41,842 nucleotides of DNA from Planctomycetaceae bacterium. Lineage in GTDB: Bacteria > Planctomycetota > Planctomycetia > Planctomycetales > Planctomycetaceae. Position numbers and translations under genes: made by a program. Where the stretch lies: assembly GCA_021732845.1 (NCBI GenBank), contig JAKFUF010000083.1, positions 1 to 41,842 on the forward strand, written 5' to 3'. Under the pieces are notes generated by a model. The model was given only the letters and a program-made list of their open reading frames with translations, was not told where the DNA came from and made no database searches. Within the stretch, counting starts at the first letter, position 1. Each line of letters opens with the position of its first letter. Positions 24,100-41,841 of this stretch are shown one piece after another.

Positions 24100-24242
24100 G
24101 AATTTCAAATTTCAGATTTCACAGTACGGGATCTTTTGCGACATCTACACATGTCACCCAGTCGCACTTTCAGCGCGACTCTGAAGGGCAGTCCGACGCT
24201 CTTTGAAAGACTGTGAAATTTGACATCTGAAATCTGAAATTC
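24100..24242. repeat. 143-base element bounded by AT-rich inverted repeats
   Basis: Left arm 24100-24124 (GAATTTCAAATTTCAGATTT then CACAG) is the reverse complement, with one 7-base indel and one or two mismatches, of the right arm 24211-24242 (CTGTGAAATTTGACATCTG then AAATCTGAAATTC). The interior is unrelated. The region lies just upstream of mnmA, so it could also influence that gene's promoter. No coding potential is present. Confidence 0.6.
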
Positions 24243-24423
24243 GTTGCCGCACACGCCTCCACAAAATTGTATCGCCCCTCGACTGTCCGGGGCCACTTAG
24301 GATCGCAGCCACAAGCACTGTGACAAGTGTCTCCCTATCCAGCAGCGAATGCCATCAGGGACTACGAATGAATTTGTTGGTGCAGTCGGCAGGCCTGGCA
24401 AAACAGTGCGGAAGTCGTACGGT
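24243..24423. other. gene-free stretch between two repeat elements
   Basis: I see no gene, promoter or hairpin of note in these 181 bases. Confidence 0.35.
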
Positions 24424-25258
24424 GGCACAAGCCCTCCGGTGAGCCTCAAAGTCGCCGAGTCACTTCGGCTGGGTTCGAGTCACGGAGTGACTCGGCAACG
24501 TTGCGGTGCCCGAGTGAGGACGACGTGAGGCTCGCGAGTTGCCCGCGGCTCTGGAGGACCAGAGCCCTCCCGCCACGCCGATTGACAAATGGAAACAACC
24601 GGTTTGTCCCAGCGGCTCACCGGACGGCTTGCGCCGTGCCGCTACAAGTGGTCGTAATGTCGTCTTTTGCTCCGCGAAAGGTAACACAAAGTAGTCGAGT
24701 CACTCCGTGACTCGCATCGTGGCTTCCTCGACGGCTTGCAAGTCACAGACAGCGGCAGGGTACAAGCGGCACAAGCCCTCCGGTGAGTCTCAAAGTCGCC
24801 CAGCCACTCCGGCCGGGTTCGAGTCACGGAGTGACTCGGCAACTTTGCGGTGCCCGAGAGAGGACGACGTGTTCGGGAGAACAGAGCCCTCCCGCCACGC
24901 CGATCGACAAATGGAGACAACCGGTTTGTCCCAGCGCAACACCGGACGGCTTGCGCCGTGCCGCTACAAATGAATGGCGTAAAGTCGTCTTTTGCTCCGC
25001 AACAGAACGCGAACGTCTGGCGACAATGCCGACAGCGCGAATCTTGAGTCACCGTGCTGGGCCTCGCCGGACCACGCTCGCGTCCTTTCGCCGAGCGAAA
25101 GGCAACACAAAGTAGTCGAGTCACTCCGTGACTCGCATCGTGGCTTCCTCGACGGCTTGCCCTCCAAAGCGAGCGGCAGGGCGCAAGCAAACTGGGGAGT
25201 CTCAAAGTCGCCCAGTCACTCCGGATGGGTTCGAGTCACGGAGTGACTCGCCTACTTG
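24424..25258. repeat. cluster of tandem units carrying five identical palindromes
   Basis: The region holds two full units and one partial. Unit starts are marked by GCAC/GGCACAAGCCCTCCGGTGAG near 24426 and 24770, and a third unit begins at about 25197. Five perfect 8-bp-arm palindromes occur. CGAGTCACGGAGTGACTCG lies at 24476-24494, 24820-24838 and 25232-25250, and its reverse complement CGAGTCACTCCGTGACTCG at 24696-24714 and 25117-25135. Orientation alternates strictly. Shared flanks include CAAAGTCGCC before the forward form and CATCGTGGCTTCCTCGACGG after the reverse form. Each full unit also carries CCTCCCGCCACGCCGAT and ACCGGACGGCTTGCGCC. The first unit includes the GGCTCTGG-N4-CCAGAGCC hairpin (24547-24566) known from 4250. 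The stretch is non-coding. Confidence 0.85.
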
Positions 25259-25271
25259 ACCCGGCGTCGCG

Positions 25272-25298
25272 AAACGACATAGAAATTCTGTCGTTTTT
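25272..25298 (+). terminator. terminator-like hairpin upstream of the HTH gene
   Basis: AAACGACA (25272-25279) pairs with TGTCGTTT (25289-25296) across a 9-base loop and is followed by two further T. It would insulate the HTH gene from transcripts crossing the repeat cluster. Confidence 0.5.
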
Positions 25299-25302
25299 GT
25301 GT

Positions 25303-25341
25303 TTGACATTGACAGGACACTCGGATAATGTATTTGATACA
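25303..25341 (+). promoter_or_regulatory. promoter and small palindrome ahead of the HTH gene
   Basis: Two TTGACA hexamers lie back to back (25303-25308 and 25309-25314). The first is 17 bases from TAATGT (25326-25331), and GATAAT (25324-25329) is an alternative -10. A palindrome, TGTAT-TTG-ATACA (25329-25341), overlaps the -10/+1 area and could be an operator. The stretch is markedly AT-rich compared with its surroundings. Confidence 0.55.
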
Positions 25342-25370
25342 TGGGTACATTGTGTTTTTTTGGGTGAATT

Positions 25371-26603
25371 ATGGAAGTTTTTATTCAGGATCCGGTGGCT
25401 CCCCAAAGCCCTCCAGGCGTGGCTCCATCCGGCGAGGGGCGGGCGCGGAAGGAGCGGGCGGACTGCAAGGTGTCGGACGAGGGGTTGTACCACGCCATCG
25501 TGGCTCATCTCGGCGTGTTGTCCTACGTCGCGATCGCGGTGGGGATCAACCGCTCGGCACTCTATAAACGGATCGAGCGTGCCCCCGCACTGCAGGCCGC
25601 CCGCGACGGGGCGCGGCGGATGCTGTTGTCGCGGGCGACCTACCATTTGCGCAAGGCACTGCACGCGGGGATTGACTGGGCGGTCCACTACGTCATGTGC
25701 CGCGAGGACCAACTTTGGACGCCGTTCAACGAGCCACAGCCGCCGACGGAAGCGCAGGCCAACAGGGCTCCCCGCGAGCCGAAACTGGAAGAGGCGGAGG
25801 AGGTTGAGGAACAGCCGGAGCGGGCGGGCAAGTCGCTGCGGCGGCTGATCCGCGCGGTGGAGCGCGGGGAGCCATGGGCGGTGAAATACTGCCTGAACCA
25901 TCTGGACCCCCGCGGCCGCTACGCGAAGAAATCCTGCGGCCGAAAGGCGGAAGCCACGGTTGGACAGGTCGCGCCCCAACCGCCGGTCGTCATTGATGAA
26001 GTCGCCGCCGAGCTGGCGAAGGCGGTCTTTGATGCGGAACGCGGCCGTGGGACAGGCCAACGCCAAAAGCAAGTTGCGCCGCCTGTCTTGGCGTCGGACA
26101 ACCGACCGGCGGACGAGCCCACAACAGTCGTCGAGACCGCGCAAGAAAACACTTCGCCCGCGCAGGCGTTGATGTCAGAGGCGGCTTGCCAGGAAGGAGC
26201 GATGACCTCTTCGGCACACGCTCAACAGCCCCTGGTTTCCGCGCCCACCCTCGAGACAGAATCAGCGCCCACTGTTTCCGTGAACGGACAGAATCTGAAC
26301 CACGAGTTCGCGCCCACCGTGGATGTCGGGTTCACGCACAGCTCCACTTCTCGACTGCCGACCGCCGCGCCGCTCCGCACGGCGATCGCGCCCGAACCGT
26401 TCACGCCCACCCTCGACCCAGCGCCCACCTTGGACGCCGCACCACTTCCAAACAGCGCGCCCACCAAGCCCATCAAGTGTTCGCCATCGCCGAAGCGCAA
26501 GCAGCAAAAAGCCCAATCCCGCGATCGCACCCGAAAACGGCGCGTGCGACCTCTCTCAACGAAAAAGCGCAGCCACGTGCGCCGGTCACATTCGAAGCCG
26601 TAG
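25371..26603 (+). CDS. HTH protein with duplicated helical motif and low-complexity tail
   Basis: 410 residues. Residues 34-70 look like a helix-turn-helix (SDEGLYHAIVAHLGVLSYVA then VGINRSALYKRIER), with the KVSDEGLY...ALYKRI pattern of planctomycete proteins resembling phage terminase small subunits or homeodomain-like regulators. A motif then occurs twice: TYHLRKALHAGIDWAVHYV (90-108) and LRRLIRAVERGEPWAVKYCL (156-175). The second is followed by DPRGRYAKK. From about 190 the sequence is rich in Ala, Pro, Thr, with recurring (S/F)APT(L/V) units, and ends in a strongly basic tail (RTRKRRVRPLSTKKRSHVRR). The stop TAG (26601-26603) is formed by the end of a repeat element. DNA binding is likely; the role is unknown. 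Confidence 0.8.
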   Translation: MEVFIQDPVAPQSPPGVAPSGEGRARKERADCKVSDEGLYHAIVAHLGVLSYVAIAVGINRSALYKRIERAPALQAARDGARRMLLSRATYHLRKALHAGIDWAVHYVMCREDQLWTPFNEPQPPTEAQANRAPREPKLEEAEEVEEQPERAGKSLRRLIRAVERGEPWAVKYCLNHLDPRGRYAKKSCGRKAEATVGQVAPQPPVVIDEVAAELAKAVFDAERGRGTGQRQKQVAPPVLASDNRPADEPTTVVETAQENTSPAQALMSEAACQEGAMTSSAHAQQPLVSAPTLETESAPTVSVNGQNLNHEFAPTVDVGFTHSSTSRLPTAAPLRTAIAPEPFTPTLDPAPTLDAAPLPNSAPTKPIKCSPSPKRKQQKAQSRDRTRKRRVRPLSTKKRSHVRRSHSKP

Positions 26604-26729
26604 GATGGCCTTCCGAGGCCGTCCCGATGAACAGTTGATGCTCCCTACACCGTCGATTTGGCGAATCCCGACGTTTTTCGGCGAGTGGGCGTCAACCGCC
26701 CTCCGAACGGCCTAGGAAGGCCATTCTAC
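26600..26729. repeat. MITE-like element with GTAG...CTAC terminal inverted repeats, copy 1
   Basis: A 130-base element. The left end GTAGGATGGCCTTCCGAGG (from 26600) is nearly the reverse complement of the right end CCTAGGAAGGCCATTCTAC (to 26729), with two mismatches over 23 bases. The interior includes CCGATGAACAGTTGATGCTC and GGCGTCAACCGCCCTCC. Its first bases supply the stop codon of the HTH gene. It is related to the element at 41113-41306. I see no clear target-site duplication. Confidence 0.75.
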
Positions 26730-26736
26730 AAACACC

Positions 26737-26846
26737 GTAAGATGGCCTTCCGAGGCCGTCCCGATGCACGGTTGATCCTCCCTTCACCATCGGTTTGGCG
26801 AATCCCTACTCCATCCATTCATCCGACGTTTTTCGGCCCTCCGGTG
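26737..26846. repeat. second, truncated copy of the GTAG-type element
   Basis: Starts GTAAGATGGCCTTCCGAGG, seven bases after copy 1 ends, and follows the same interior (CCGATGCACGGTTGATCC, TTGGCGAATCCC, GACGTTTTTCGGC). The right terminal repeat is missing. The end at 26846 is approximate, where similarity to copy 1 is lost in CCCTCCGGTGAGCC. Confidence 0.65.
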
Positions 26847-27061
26847 AGCCACCACGAATGGACGCGAATTGACGCGAATAAAGGCTGTTGGTTCGGTGGC
26901 CGGACCAGGAGTTGCGGGCCAGATTTGCGGGGCACGTCAATCCCGGCTTCGCCATCTTCAAAACTGGCCATCCAATATGCCACTGTTGACTGTGGCATTT
27001 TCTTTCGACGGACCGGACAATTTCAGGACAGACCCAGTTGGCTGTCCAGGAGCGATTCATC
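26847..27061 (+). other. gap with a hairpin upstream of the propeller gene
   Basis: No gene is visible. ATGCCAC (26977-26983) pairs with GTGGCAT (26992-26998) over an 8-base loop and is followed by TTTCTTTC, a weak terminator-like structure on the plus strand. The ribosome binding site AGGAG (27048-27052) of the next gene closes the region. Confidence 0.4.
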
Positions 27062-41112: not shown

Positions 41113-41306
41113 GTAGAATTGCCTTCCTAGGCCGCTTGGTGGGCGGTTGACTTTCGCTCGCCGAGGAATCCCACCTGGGCATCACATTCATGGTGCGGGT
41201 TTTAAGCTCCCCGATTGCTCTTGCTGGATCGAGACGGCGTTTGCCATATCGATTTGTGCAGGGAAGGTCGACTGTCCATCGGGACGGCCTCGGAAGGCCA
41301 TCCTAC
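41113..41306. repeat. MITE-like element with GTAG...CTAC ends, copy near the edge gene
   Basis: A 194-base element. The left end GTAGAATTGCCTTCCTAGG and right end CCTCGGAAGGCCATCCTAC are imperfect inverted repeats. Read on the minus strand it starts GTAGGATGGCCTTCCGAGG then CCGTCCCGATG and ends with CGGCCTAGGAAGG, the same ends as 26600-26729 but with a longer and different middle. It begins 10 bases after the stop of the minus-strand edge gene. Confidence 0.72.
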
Positions 41307-41316
41307 ATGACAAAAA

Positions 41317-41841
41317 TCACAGCCTCTCCGCAATAGGGGGCGCACCCTTCAACACCGCGCTGTCAGCCAGGGCGGCGGGAGCGGGACCATCCCGGTTCGC
41401 CTCGCTGGTCTCAATAGGGGGCGCAGTGGGTTCCGCCTCGATGTGGGGTACTGCGGGCAGCACGTTGTGCTTCTTCGGCATTTTGACTGGCTCTCTGGAC
41501 GCCTCGTCTTCCAAGTGATCGAAGTCGTCGGTTGCAGCCTGCTGATGTTTGTGGTGCAACAATAATTCCGGCGATCCTGGCTGCGCCAACTCCAAGATGC
41601 GGGGCGCGGTCGGCAAACCGGGTTCCCGGCTTCTTGGGGAACACACCTCCGGTTCATCCACCGTTTCGCGAGTGGACACAACATAAATGGCATCGGGCCT
41701 CTTCAGGGTCATCACCACCCGTTCTGATTGCACGACGGAGGGCGCGGTGGCTGCGGAAACACCGCTCGGGGGCGATGTAGGTGCCGCCTTCGCGACAGGG
41801 GGCGCAGGCGGCAGTTCGAGTCGCCCCGACAGCAGCCCGTA
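41317..41841 (-). CDS. Ala/Pro-rich C-terminal part of an unidentified protein, 5' end outside window
   Basis: The minus-strand frame is open from the right edge to TGA at 41317-41319, about 174 residues; the start lies outside the window. The visible part reads YGLLSGRLELPPAPPVAKA, then a low-complexity region rich in Ala, Pro, Ser and Glu with recurring APP(I/V) units (TAPPIETSE, GAPPIAERL at the end). The middle stretch LLLHHKHQQAATDDFDHLE is more protein-like. Tail composition and the GTAG-type element right behind the stop resemble the HTH gene at 25371, so it may be a paralogue whose conserved N-terminal half is cut off. That relation is inference; no domain is visible here. Confidence 0.55.
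   Translation of the reverse strand, partial: YGLLSGRLELPPAPPVAKAAPTSPPSGVSAATAPSVVQSERVVMTLKRPDAIYVVSTRETVDEPEVCSPRSREPGLPTAPRILELAQPGSPELLLHHKHQQAATDDFDHLEDEASREPVKMPKKHNVLPAVPHIEAEPTAPPIETSEANRDGPAPAALADSAVLKGAPPIAERL

Follow-up and report, generated by a model that had tools for sequence, protein, structure and literature searches.

A multicopy helix-turn-helix gene family in a planctomycete genome, with GTAG-headed palindromic repeats beside its genes, at their stop codons and inside their tails

The locus and its protein

We analyzed a stretch of 41,842 nucleotides (the window; positions 1 to 41,842 of the forward strand of contig JAKFUF010000083.1, assembly GCA_021732845.1) from a Planctomycetaceae bacterium. 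Its main subject is a gene for a 410-residue protein with a helix-turn-helix (HTH), whose stop codon lies in a palindromic repeat with a GTAG head. The gene belongs to a family of dozens of paralogues, divided below into groups A, B and C. Repetitive extragenic palindromic sequences (REPs) of three types, here called R1, R2 and R4, occur beside these genes, at their stop codons or within their open reading frames (ORFs). The features of the locus are as follows.

24424..25257, no strand: upstream array of GTAG-headed R1 palindromes and further palindromes; the same type of array lies beside many paralogues
25268..25370, + strand: left border of the repeated unit, with the promoter region; homology among copies with different left flanks ends here
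25371..26603, + strand: ORF of the multicopy HTH protein, 410 residues, with a duplicated helical motif, a low-complexity linker and a basic tip
25476..25580, + strand: helix-turn-helix, residues ~36-70, based on Pfam, the structure model and distant relatives
25638..25694, + strand: helical motif, first copy, residues 90-108, LSRATYHLRKALHAGIDWAVHYVMC
25836..25895, + strand: helical motif, second copy, residues 156-175, GKSLRRLIRAVERGEPWAVKYCLNH
26076..26087, + strand: 12-mer GCGCCGCCTGTC encoding APPV, which recurs with near-identical codons in tails of all three groups
26496..26600, + strand: basic C-terminal tip, residues 376-410, conserved between paralogues
26600..26729, no strand: R2, a REPIN-like element with GTAG and an imperfect GGCCTTCC-type palindrome at both ends, inverted; its head provides the stop codon
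26735..26809, no strand: second, partial copy of R2, from inverted-repeat analysis

An earlier note, made from the letters of this DNA, had described an ORF with an HTH, a duplicated helical motif and a low-complexity tail, and all of these are borne out. Residues 191-375 are rich in alanine, proline and threonine (16%, 14% and 10%), and residues 376-410 are basic (46% lysine plus arginine, net charge +15). The best HTH match of the window protein in Pfam, to P22_Cro (E 0.0036), is under the cut-off. The HTH region is nonetheless modeled confidently, with a block at a predicted local distance difference test score (pLDDT) of 84-93 over model residues 21-70, and HTH_8/Fis profiles exceed the cut-off in three of five distant relatives tested. 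In the duplicated motif, W103, A104, W169 and Y173 are invariant across 21 paralogues. On the strength of its HTH, the protein is predicted to bind DNA.

Other searches added little. For the window protein, NCBIfam and a sequence search against solved structures gave nothing informative. A fold search with the model (mean pLDDT 62.7 overall) returned 32 matches with E <= 10, none of them <= 0.001, and the weak matches include Fis, NtrC4 and phBC6A51 chains. Rfam gave three matches in window positions 24200-27000, all far under the gathering score.

A family of more than 40 genes in one genome

A protein search of the window's own genome gave 66 matches. Sixteen, counting the window gene, are near full length at 76-100% identity, and the others are gene pieces and more distant members. 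A profile of the core found 63 matches, 44 of which have a complete core, with an internal stop in only two. More than 40 HTH proteins of the family are present within one genome, a 9.25-Mb draft of 95.7% completeness in 262 contigs. Many of the copies are found at contig ends, and some are incomplete. By core sequence, the family forms group A, which includes the window gene, group B (39-45% identical to the window core) and group C (29-33%). One copy, L064, is intermediate between A and B, with a core 58% identical to that of the window gene.

The window itself holds two paralogues from different groups: the group A gene at 25371-26603 and, at the right end of the contig, a piece of a group B gene that also has an R2-type repeat behind it.

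41317..41841, - strand: second family member, a group B paralogue interrupted by the contig end and present with its 3' 174 codons
41113..41306, no strand: R2-type repeat with its GTAG head 10 nt past the stop of the 41317-41841 gene

Selection acts differently on the parts of the protein. For 16 group A copies with a single open frame (L053, which has a frameshift, is excluded), the mean dN/dS (ratio of nonsynonymous to synonymous substitution rates) is 0.081 in the core (residues 15-200), 0.649 in the linker (201-375) and 0.189 in the basic tip (376-410), with a mean dS of 0.25-0.41 across the three regions. These are plain pairwise Nei-Gojobori means rather than tree-based values. The core and basic tip are under purifying selection and the linker is loose, which means that the tail is translated, that its tip matters and that the linker is nearly free. 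The window ORF is a real, selected gene.

Promoter features were judged by eye against consensus sequences, as were HUH and integrase features. The window gene has the promoter dyad ATGTAT-TTG-ATACAT at 25328-25342. Promoter dyads in the family include ATGTATnnnATACAT and GTACAT, GTAC/TACAT motifs are present, and each paralogue group has its own promoter. Based on the dyads, the HTH protein is probably autoregulated.

Relatives outside this genome were sought in three overlapping samples, in which limited numbers of candidates were scored, so that absence elsewhere is unproved. The protein search found no match in the genomes of 39 relatives (up to 45 first-look candidates scored per genome). 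The core profile matched one of 391 other genomes in a sample of the phylum (nine candidates per genome) and eight of 169 in a sample of the family (20 candidates per genome). These matches cover about the first half of the core with E-values of 3e-13 to 7e-4; there is one in each genome, except for one genome with two. The majority of these relatives are short HTH proteins or frames in which a single WAV-like motif is present. Two such short relatives turned up in a scan of GTDB contigs with two peptide patterns, a collection that possibly leaves out the window's own genome. One short HTH relative (L114 1371-1757), in a metagenome-assembled genome labeled Meiothermus, adjoins an integrase-like ORF (by eye), and its locus also has a cluster of other inverted repeats (TGTCGGT...).

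R2 supplies the stop codon

R2 is 130 bp long. Its arms, at 26600-26627 and 26702-26729, are 86% complementary and separated by 74 nt. With the palindrome GGCCTTCCGAGGCC in its left arm and a close match to it in the right, R2 resembles a REPIN, i.e. two GTAG-headed REPs facing each other, and the two REPs of the same type form one repeated, inverted unit. R2 recurs in the genome both with and without the gene, and one R2, on contig C233, lies ~1.9 kb from an ORF matching the Pfam family Y1_Tnp.

The TAG stop of the window gene, at 26601-26603, lies within the GTAG at 26600-26603 that begins R2, as the earlier note had observed, and the arrangement recurs. In ten of 17 aligned group A copies (window included), R2 is present at the 3' end, and nine of the 17 draw their stop from its head: eight use TAG and one, L046, uses TAA, its R2 head reading GTAA. 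The junction in these nine reads ...TTCG followed by AAGCCGTAG, with small variants, and in L048 a TGA is retained with R2 a few bases beyond. Five of the seven copies lacking R2 end in ...RSHSPIG-TGA; L047 is one residue longer and L051 stops earlier. By comparison, copies with an R2-derived stop end in ...RSHSKP-TAG or close variants. R2 has thus swapped the final two or three residues and the stop codon. The earlier note had suggested that the element truncated or remodeled the 3' end. Remodeling stands, confined to those last residues, but truncation is ruled out by R2-free copies of about equal length. A chance overlap of stop and repeat is likewise ruled out, as the same junction occurs in nine of 17 aligned copies.

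The arrangement also occurs outside group A. In the group B gene L069, whose core is 43% identical to that of the window gene, the TAG is again the GTAG of an R2-type repeat. There are four distinct R2 junctions at 3' ends of the family, namely the group A junction and those of L048, L069 and window position 41306, which we infer to be four independent insertions.

Such stops are instances of a known phenomenon: GTAG termini of REPs often supply the TAG stop of flanking ORFs, according to Di Nocera et al. (2013, PMC3733652). In E. coli, REPs placed fewer than 16 nt away from a stop can reduce translation (PMC12306157), so a translational effect of R2 is a fair guess. By this analogy, a REP hairpin so near the stop probably lowers translation of each copy.

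R1 is concentrated around groups A and B

R1 is the sequence CGAGTCACnnnGTGACTCG. The palindrome cluster that the earlier note saw upstream of the window gene contains five exact R1 sites within ~24476-25250 (near 24476, 24696, 24820, 25117 and 25232). Exact R1 occurs at 300 sites in the genome and its reversed control at none, so the pattern does not arise by chance. R1 has a GTAG head beside an imperfect palindrome in the 20-40 bp range and is a high-copy, dispersed repeat found in inverted pairs, as expected for a GTAG REP. The more general pattern GTAG[T/G/C/A]CGAGTCACTCCGTGACTCG accounts for 50 of 61 GTAG hairpins at 40 family loci; in control DNA, there are five hairpins of all kinds per 400 kb.

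Within 3 kb of family genes, we counted 72 exact R1 sites in 115 kb for group A (21 loci), 22 in 77 kb for group B (12 loci) and five in 34 kb for group C (seven loci). Controls had five in 400 kb of contig interiors (20 pieces of 20 kb from large contigs) and five in 100 kb from 20 contig ends, one of which starts in a fragment (29 residues) of a group C gene. The density at group A is therefore ~50 times that of contig interiors, 12 times that of contig ends and 19 times the genome mean. Overall, 99 of the 300 exact sites lie within 3 kb of the 40 loci, which make up 226,687 bases or 2.5% of the genome. When as many as two mismatches are allowed, R1 lies inside or within 1 kb of 17 of 20 group A, seven of 12 group B and one of seven group C genes (L058 omitted), versus 3.9% of random control windows.

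A tally by group used 54 ORFs reclassified by profile (22 A, 16 B and 16 C, with L064 moved from B to A and cut fragments included). R1 is nearby in 16 of 22 group A, seven of 16 group B and one of 16 group C members; R2 is nearby in 11 of the 22 in group A, and R4 is present in eight of the 16 in group C. Most group A copies have R1 or R2 near them, on varying sides and at varying distances, and most group C copies have neither. Where R1 is not in the left flank, it can be downstream, at varying distances, or within ORFs. The outcome that the earlier note had named as a refutation, homologues with the same tail and stop beside no repeat together with no enrichment, is not what we found. Two arrays of eight R1 sites, on contigs C6 and C12 (L116 4982-7583 and L117 4672-6538), have no family gene near them (tblastn, E 1e-3).

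There are five matches to Y1_Tnp in the genome. One, on contig C57, is a 232-residue ORF above the Pfam cut-off (L132 5223-5921, - strand). On one side of it are twelve exact R1 in alternating orientation (L132 4297-5221), and on the other side is only a diverged form. This ORF and its twelve R1 likely constitute a REPtron, which makes the ORF a candidate transposase for R1.

REPs and modules within coding tails

Some REPs are translated. R1 lies inside the ORF in at least six of 16 group B and one of 16 group C members, where it is read as (V)AESLRDSN. R4, GTAGTGTGGACTTCAGTCCACA and variants, is another GTAG repeat, inside the ORF of at least eight of 16 group C members. It is translated as RSVDFSPQ or variants, with a 183-bp spacing in some of these ORFs. 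In total, R1 or R4 lies within the ORFs of at least 14 of the 54 members; these counts are lower bounds because fragments cut by the ends of contigs or stretches are included.

Many group B and C tails, among the matches listed, are chains of modules that each begin with APP(V/I/L). There are 66 such motifs in the tails of 34 genes. Sixty-two are coded GCG-CC[GC]-CCT, and 50 continue with GTC; in control frames, 8% of prolines are coded by CCT and 31% of alanines by GCG. In the group A linker near residue 204, none of 14 APPV uses those codons. Recent duplication accounts for part of the uniformity of the 12-mer within groups, and for less of it between groups. One group B ORF of 755 codons (L067 6275-8539) has a tail in which a 58-residue module, starting with APPV, recurs several times.

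Edges of the dispersed unit

Among the best 45 pairs of group A copies, 27 have different left flanks by a reading of the alignment, and in 26 of these homology starts ~95-110 bp before the start codon. Start positions of the frames vary by 3-33 nt among copies, which we adjusted for manually; the remaining pair, L043/L052, breaks off inside the gene. On the right, homology in pairs with a full R2 extends to the far end of that element, 132-136 bp after the stop codon. Among five R2-free copies, it ends between 0 and +14 from the stop in nine of ten pairs, and L045 and L050 have at least 50 bp in common. In most pairs that include L047, L048 or L051, homology is lost before that point. Transposon-like constant ends in otherwise unrelated surroundings are found in group A only. 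The group A alignments thus indicate copies dispersed as units of promoter and ORF, with unrelated DNA from about the stop and from about 100 bp before the start. The commonest neighboring gene family (ABC-ATPase-like, by eye) is at six of 40 loci and none recurs at more, excluding frames over the gene itself and frames within repeat arrays.

A proposed history and its alternatives

We consider it fairly probable that the HTH family spread as promoter-plus-ORF units and became a landing ground for REPs mobilized by REP-associated tyrosine transposases (RAYTs). GTAG-headed REPs would be mobilized in trans by Y1 transposases of the RAYT type, in the case of R1 by the one on C57, with transposition itself inferred. 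They would insert preferentially around the units and in non-essential 3' ends. In an ancestral copy, R2 would have landed just before the last three codons and converted PIG-TGA to KP-TAG, after which gene and R2 multiplied together. In other paralogues, REPs would have landed within the tail in an open frame and become coding sequence. Selection would keep the core and basic tip, the disordered linker would tolerate REPs and duplicated modules, and exchange between copies would spread some junctions. The readings below overlap in their odds with this one and are not mutually exclusive.

Several findings weigh against this history. In group A, one left flank with R1 is common to eight of the 17 copies and another, with a different palindrome, to six; R1 sites are therefore not independent, part of their enrichment is co-duplication with the unit, and a binomial P value overstates it. 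Compared with contig ends, the excess in group A is only 12-fold. Group C is almost free of R1 (one of seven loci, one of 16 ORFs), and five of 12 group B loci lack it. Fourteen chosen R1 places outside known family loci, the arrays of eight on C6 and C12 among them, contained no family remnant. Copies with and without R2 are intermixed in the group A gene tree, which a simple, single gain of R2 does not explain and which suggests exchange between copies. Searches for an empty site with joined flanks found only 75-76% matches, inside repeat arrays, and the 1.5 kb around the PQQ gene did not include mnmA in the loci of 18 relatives. Finally, three group B copies (L070, L071 and L072) are ~99% identical over the ORF and one has a divergent promoter, which points to gene conversion rather than transposition. 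Their identity continues past the first stop to an older stop, and they share an apparent frameshift after an in-frame R1.

The units might themselves be mobile one-gene elements with ends of their own, non-autonomous and dependent on a Y1/HUH transposase acting in trans, and the REPs would be their ends or passengers. We regard this as possible, if unlikely. The left edge, the right edge at the stop or the end of R2, the unrelated flanks, the five Y1_Tnp matches and the absence of any neighboring family at more than six of 40 loci would fit, but no empty site was found by joined-flank search, no target duplication was seen, groups A and B have no common terminal sequence at the right end and there is evidence of gene conversion. 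Another reading, to which we give slightly less weight, is a transposase-less genomic parasite or domesticated REP partner, in which units that spread, a REP type for each group and REPs in the tail would make the family a second REP-linked class that co-evolves beside RAYTs. Alternatively, this could be a plain lineage-specific expansion of transcription factors, with REPs merely collecting in long intergenic gaps. In many genomes, REPs do favor the 3' ends of genes and the space between genes (PMC3733652), each group has its own promoter and R1 is also found away from the family. We doubt this explanation, given that R1 is far denser than in contig interiors and ends (controls not matched for gap length), that R1 or R4 is inside ORFs and that R2 junctions at the stop recur.

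The earlier note had speculated that gene and repeat form a long-lived unit in which the protein acts on the repeats as RAYTs act on REPs. The association holds, with a strong enrichment of repeats at the family and with gene and R2 recurring as a block. The RAYT-like action finds no support, as neither the whole window protein nor 21 cores match Y1_Tnp in Pfam, the nuclease expected of a RAYT. A related idea is a cognate pair, in which the HTH protein binds the palindromes, as a dimer on a dyad, and organizes, protects or spreads them as a second REP-linked kind of protein. Direct binding is possible: repeats at the family are far above background, their type varies by group (R1 and R2 in A, R1 in B, R4 in C), the recognition helix of group C is unlike that of A and B (by eye) and REPs are written into tails. 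The promoter dyads and GTAC/TACAT motifs, however, are unlike R1, R2 and R4 (by eye), R1 already has a Y1 transposase, and R4 is found in group C only inside ORFs and may be a tandemly copied tail module. We judge the cognate pair to be about as doubtful as the plain expansion.

Least probable, by a wide measure, are remnants of prophages or phage satellites that each carry a small terminase gene. Three of five distant relatives weakly match PHROGs annotated 'terminase small subunit' (best E 2.3e-5 to 4.6e-5), one relative adjoins the integrase-like ORF mentioned above, and the family may be distantly related to phage small-terminase or Fis-type HTH proteins. However, no gene family recurs beside most copies, the window protein has no match in PHROGs, a pattern scan of viral contigs confirmed no relative, phage records gave a single match (E 0.3) and a plasmid search gave none. 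Twelve of 21 cores match phrog_33852, of unknown function, and none matches a PHROG named terminase. We therefore rejected such remnants as the principal explanation.

Comparison with known systems

GTAG-tagged REPs, which have been reported in Planctomycetes, resemble R1 and R2 in their GTAG head and palindrome, and the supply of TAG stops and the presence of REPs within ORFs are common to both (PMC3733652). In that study, however, the host genes are varied, many of them for DNA synthesis and repair, whereas here one multicopy HTH family is struck repeatedly in its flanks, stop codon and tail. REPIN and RAYT/REP systems (Nunvar et al. 2010, PMC2817692) share inverted REP doublets, as in R2, a Y1 transposase ORF, as beside the twelve R1 here, and a repeated arrangement of gene and palindrome. 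Unlike a RAYT, the HTH gene has no HUH/Y1 domain and exists in more than 40 copies. RAYT genes are normally single-copy for each REP family.

With phage small terminase (TerS) and Fis-type HTH proteins (Pfam HTH_8), the family has in common an HTH and, after it, a helical G-x-x-WAV motif, which the single-motif relatives also show. Unlike in TerS, the motif is duplicated, the tail is long, there are dozens of copies and no neighbor such as a large terminase recurs. The family has neither a significant match to a TerS profile nor an adjacent large terminase. Palindromic elements inside Rickettsia genes are known as Rickettsia palindromic elements (RPEs). In the account of RPEs in PMC3733652, short palindromes likewise become coding sequence in permissive parts of proteins, whereas here they gather in the tails of a single family, where some have multiplied as modules.

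A literature search, whose coverage excluded most subscription journals, found no family of HTH genes linked to REPs. Set beside the known stop-codon effect, the multiplicity of the family, the REPs that it carries and the REP-written tails make this system a new variation. The 17 aligned copies, with and without a repeat-derived stop, are a natural experiment in how mobile palindromes reshape coding genes, and the sister groups show REPs converted to protein. If the association is functional, the family would be a REP-linked gene other than RAYT and would provide a testable protein for the role of REPs and REPINs in their hosts. If it is not, the family still gathers REPs at a density far exceeding the background while its core is under strong purifying selection.

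A possible short coding repeat outside the family

The 12-mer GCGCCSCCTGTC occurs 176 times in the genome, compared with 19 times for its reversed control. It is also found in ORFs outside the family, repeatedly on contigs C2, C67 and C70 and singly on C51 and C55. Non-family ORFs with APPV/APPI stretches coded by it lie at L149 3077-3268, L155 3214-3543 and L156 3424-3831, and single copies are present in L152 and L153. It looks as though a short repeat with coding content had moved from gene to gene.

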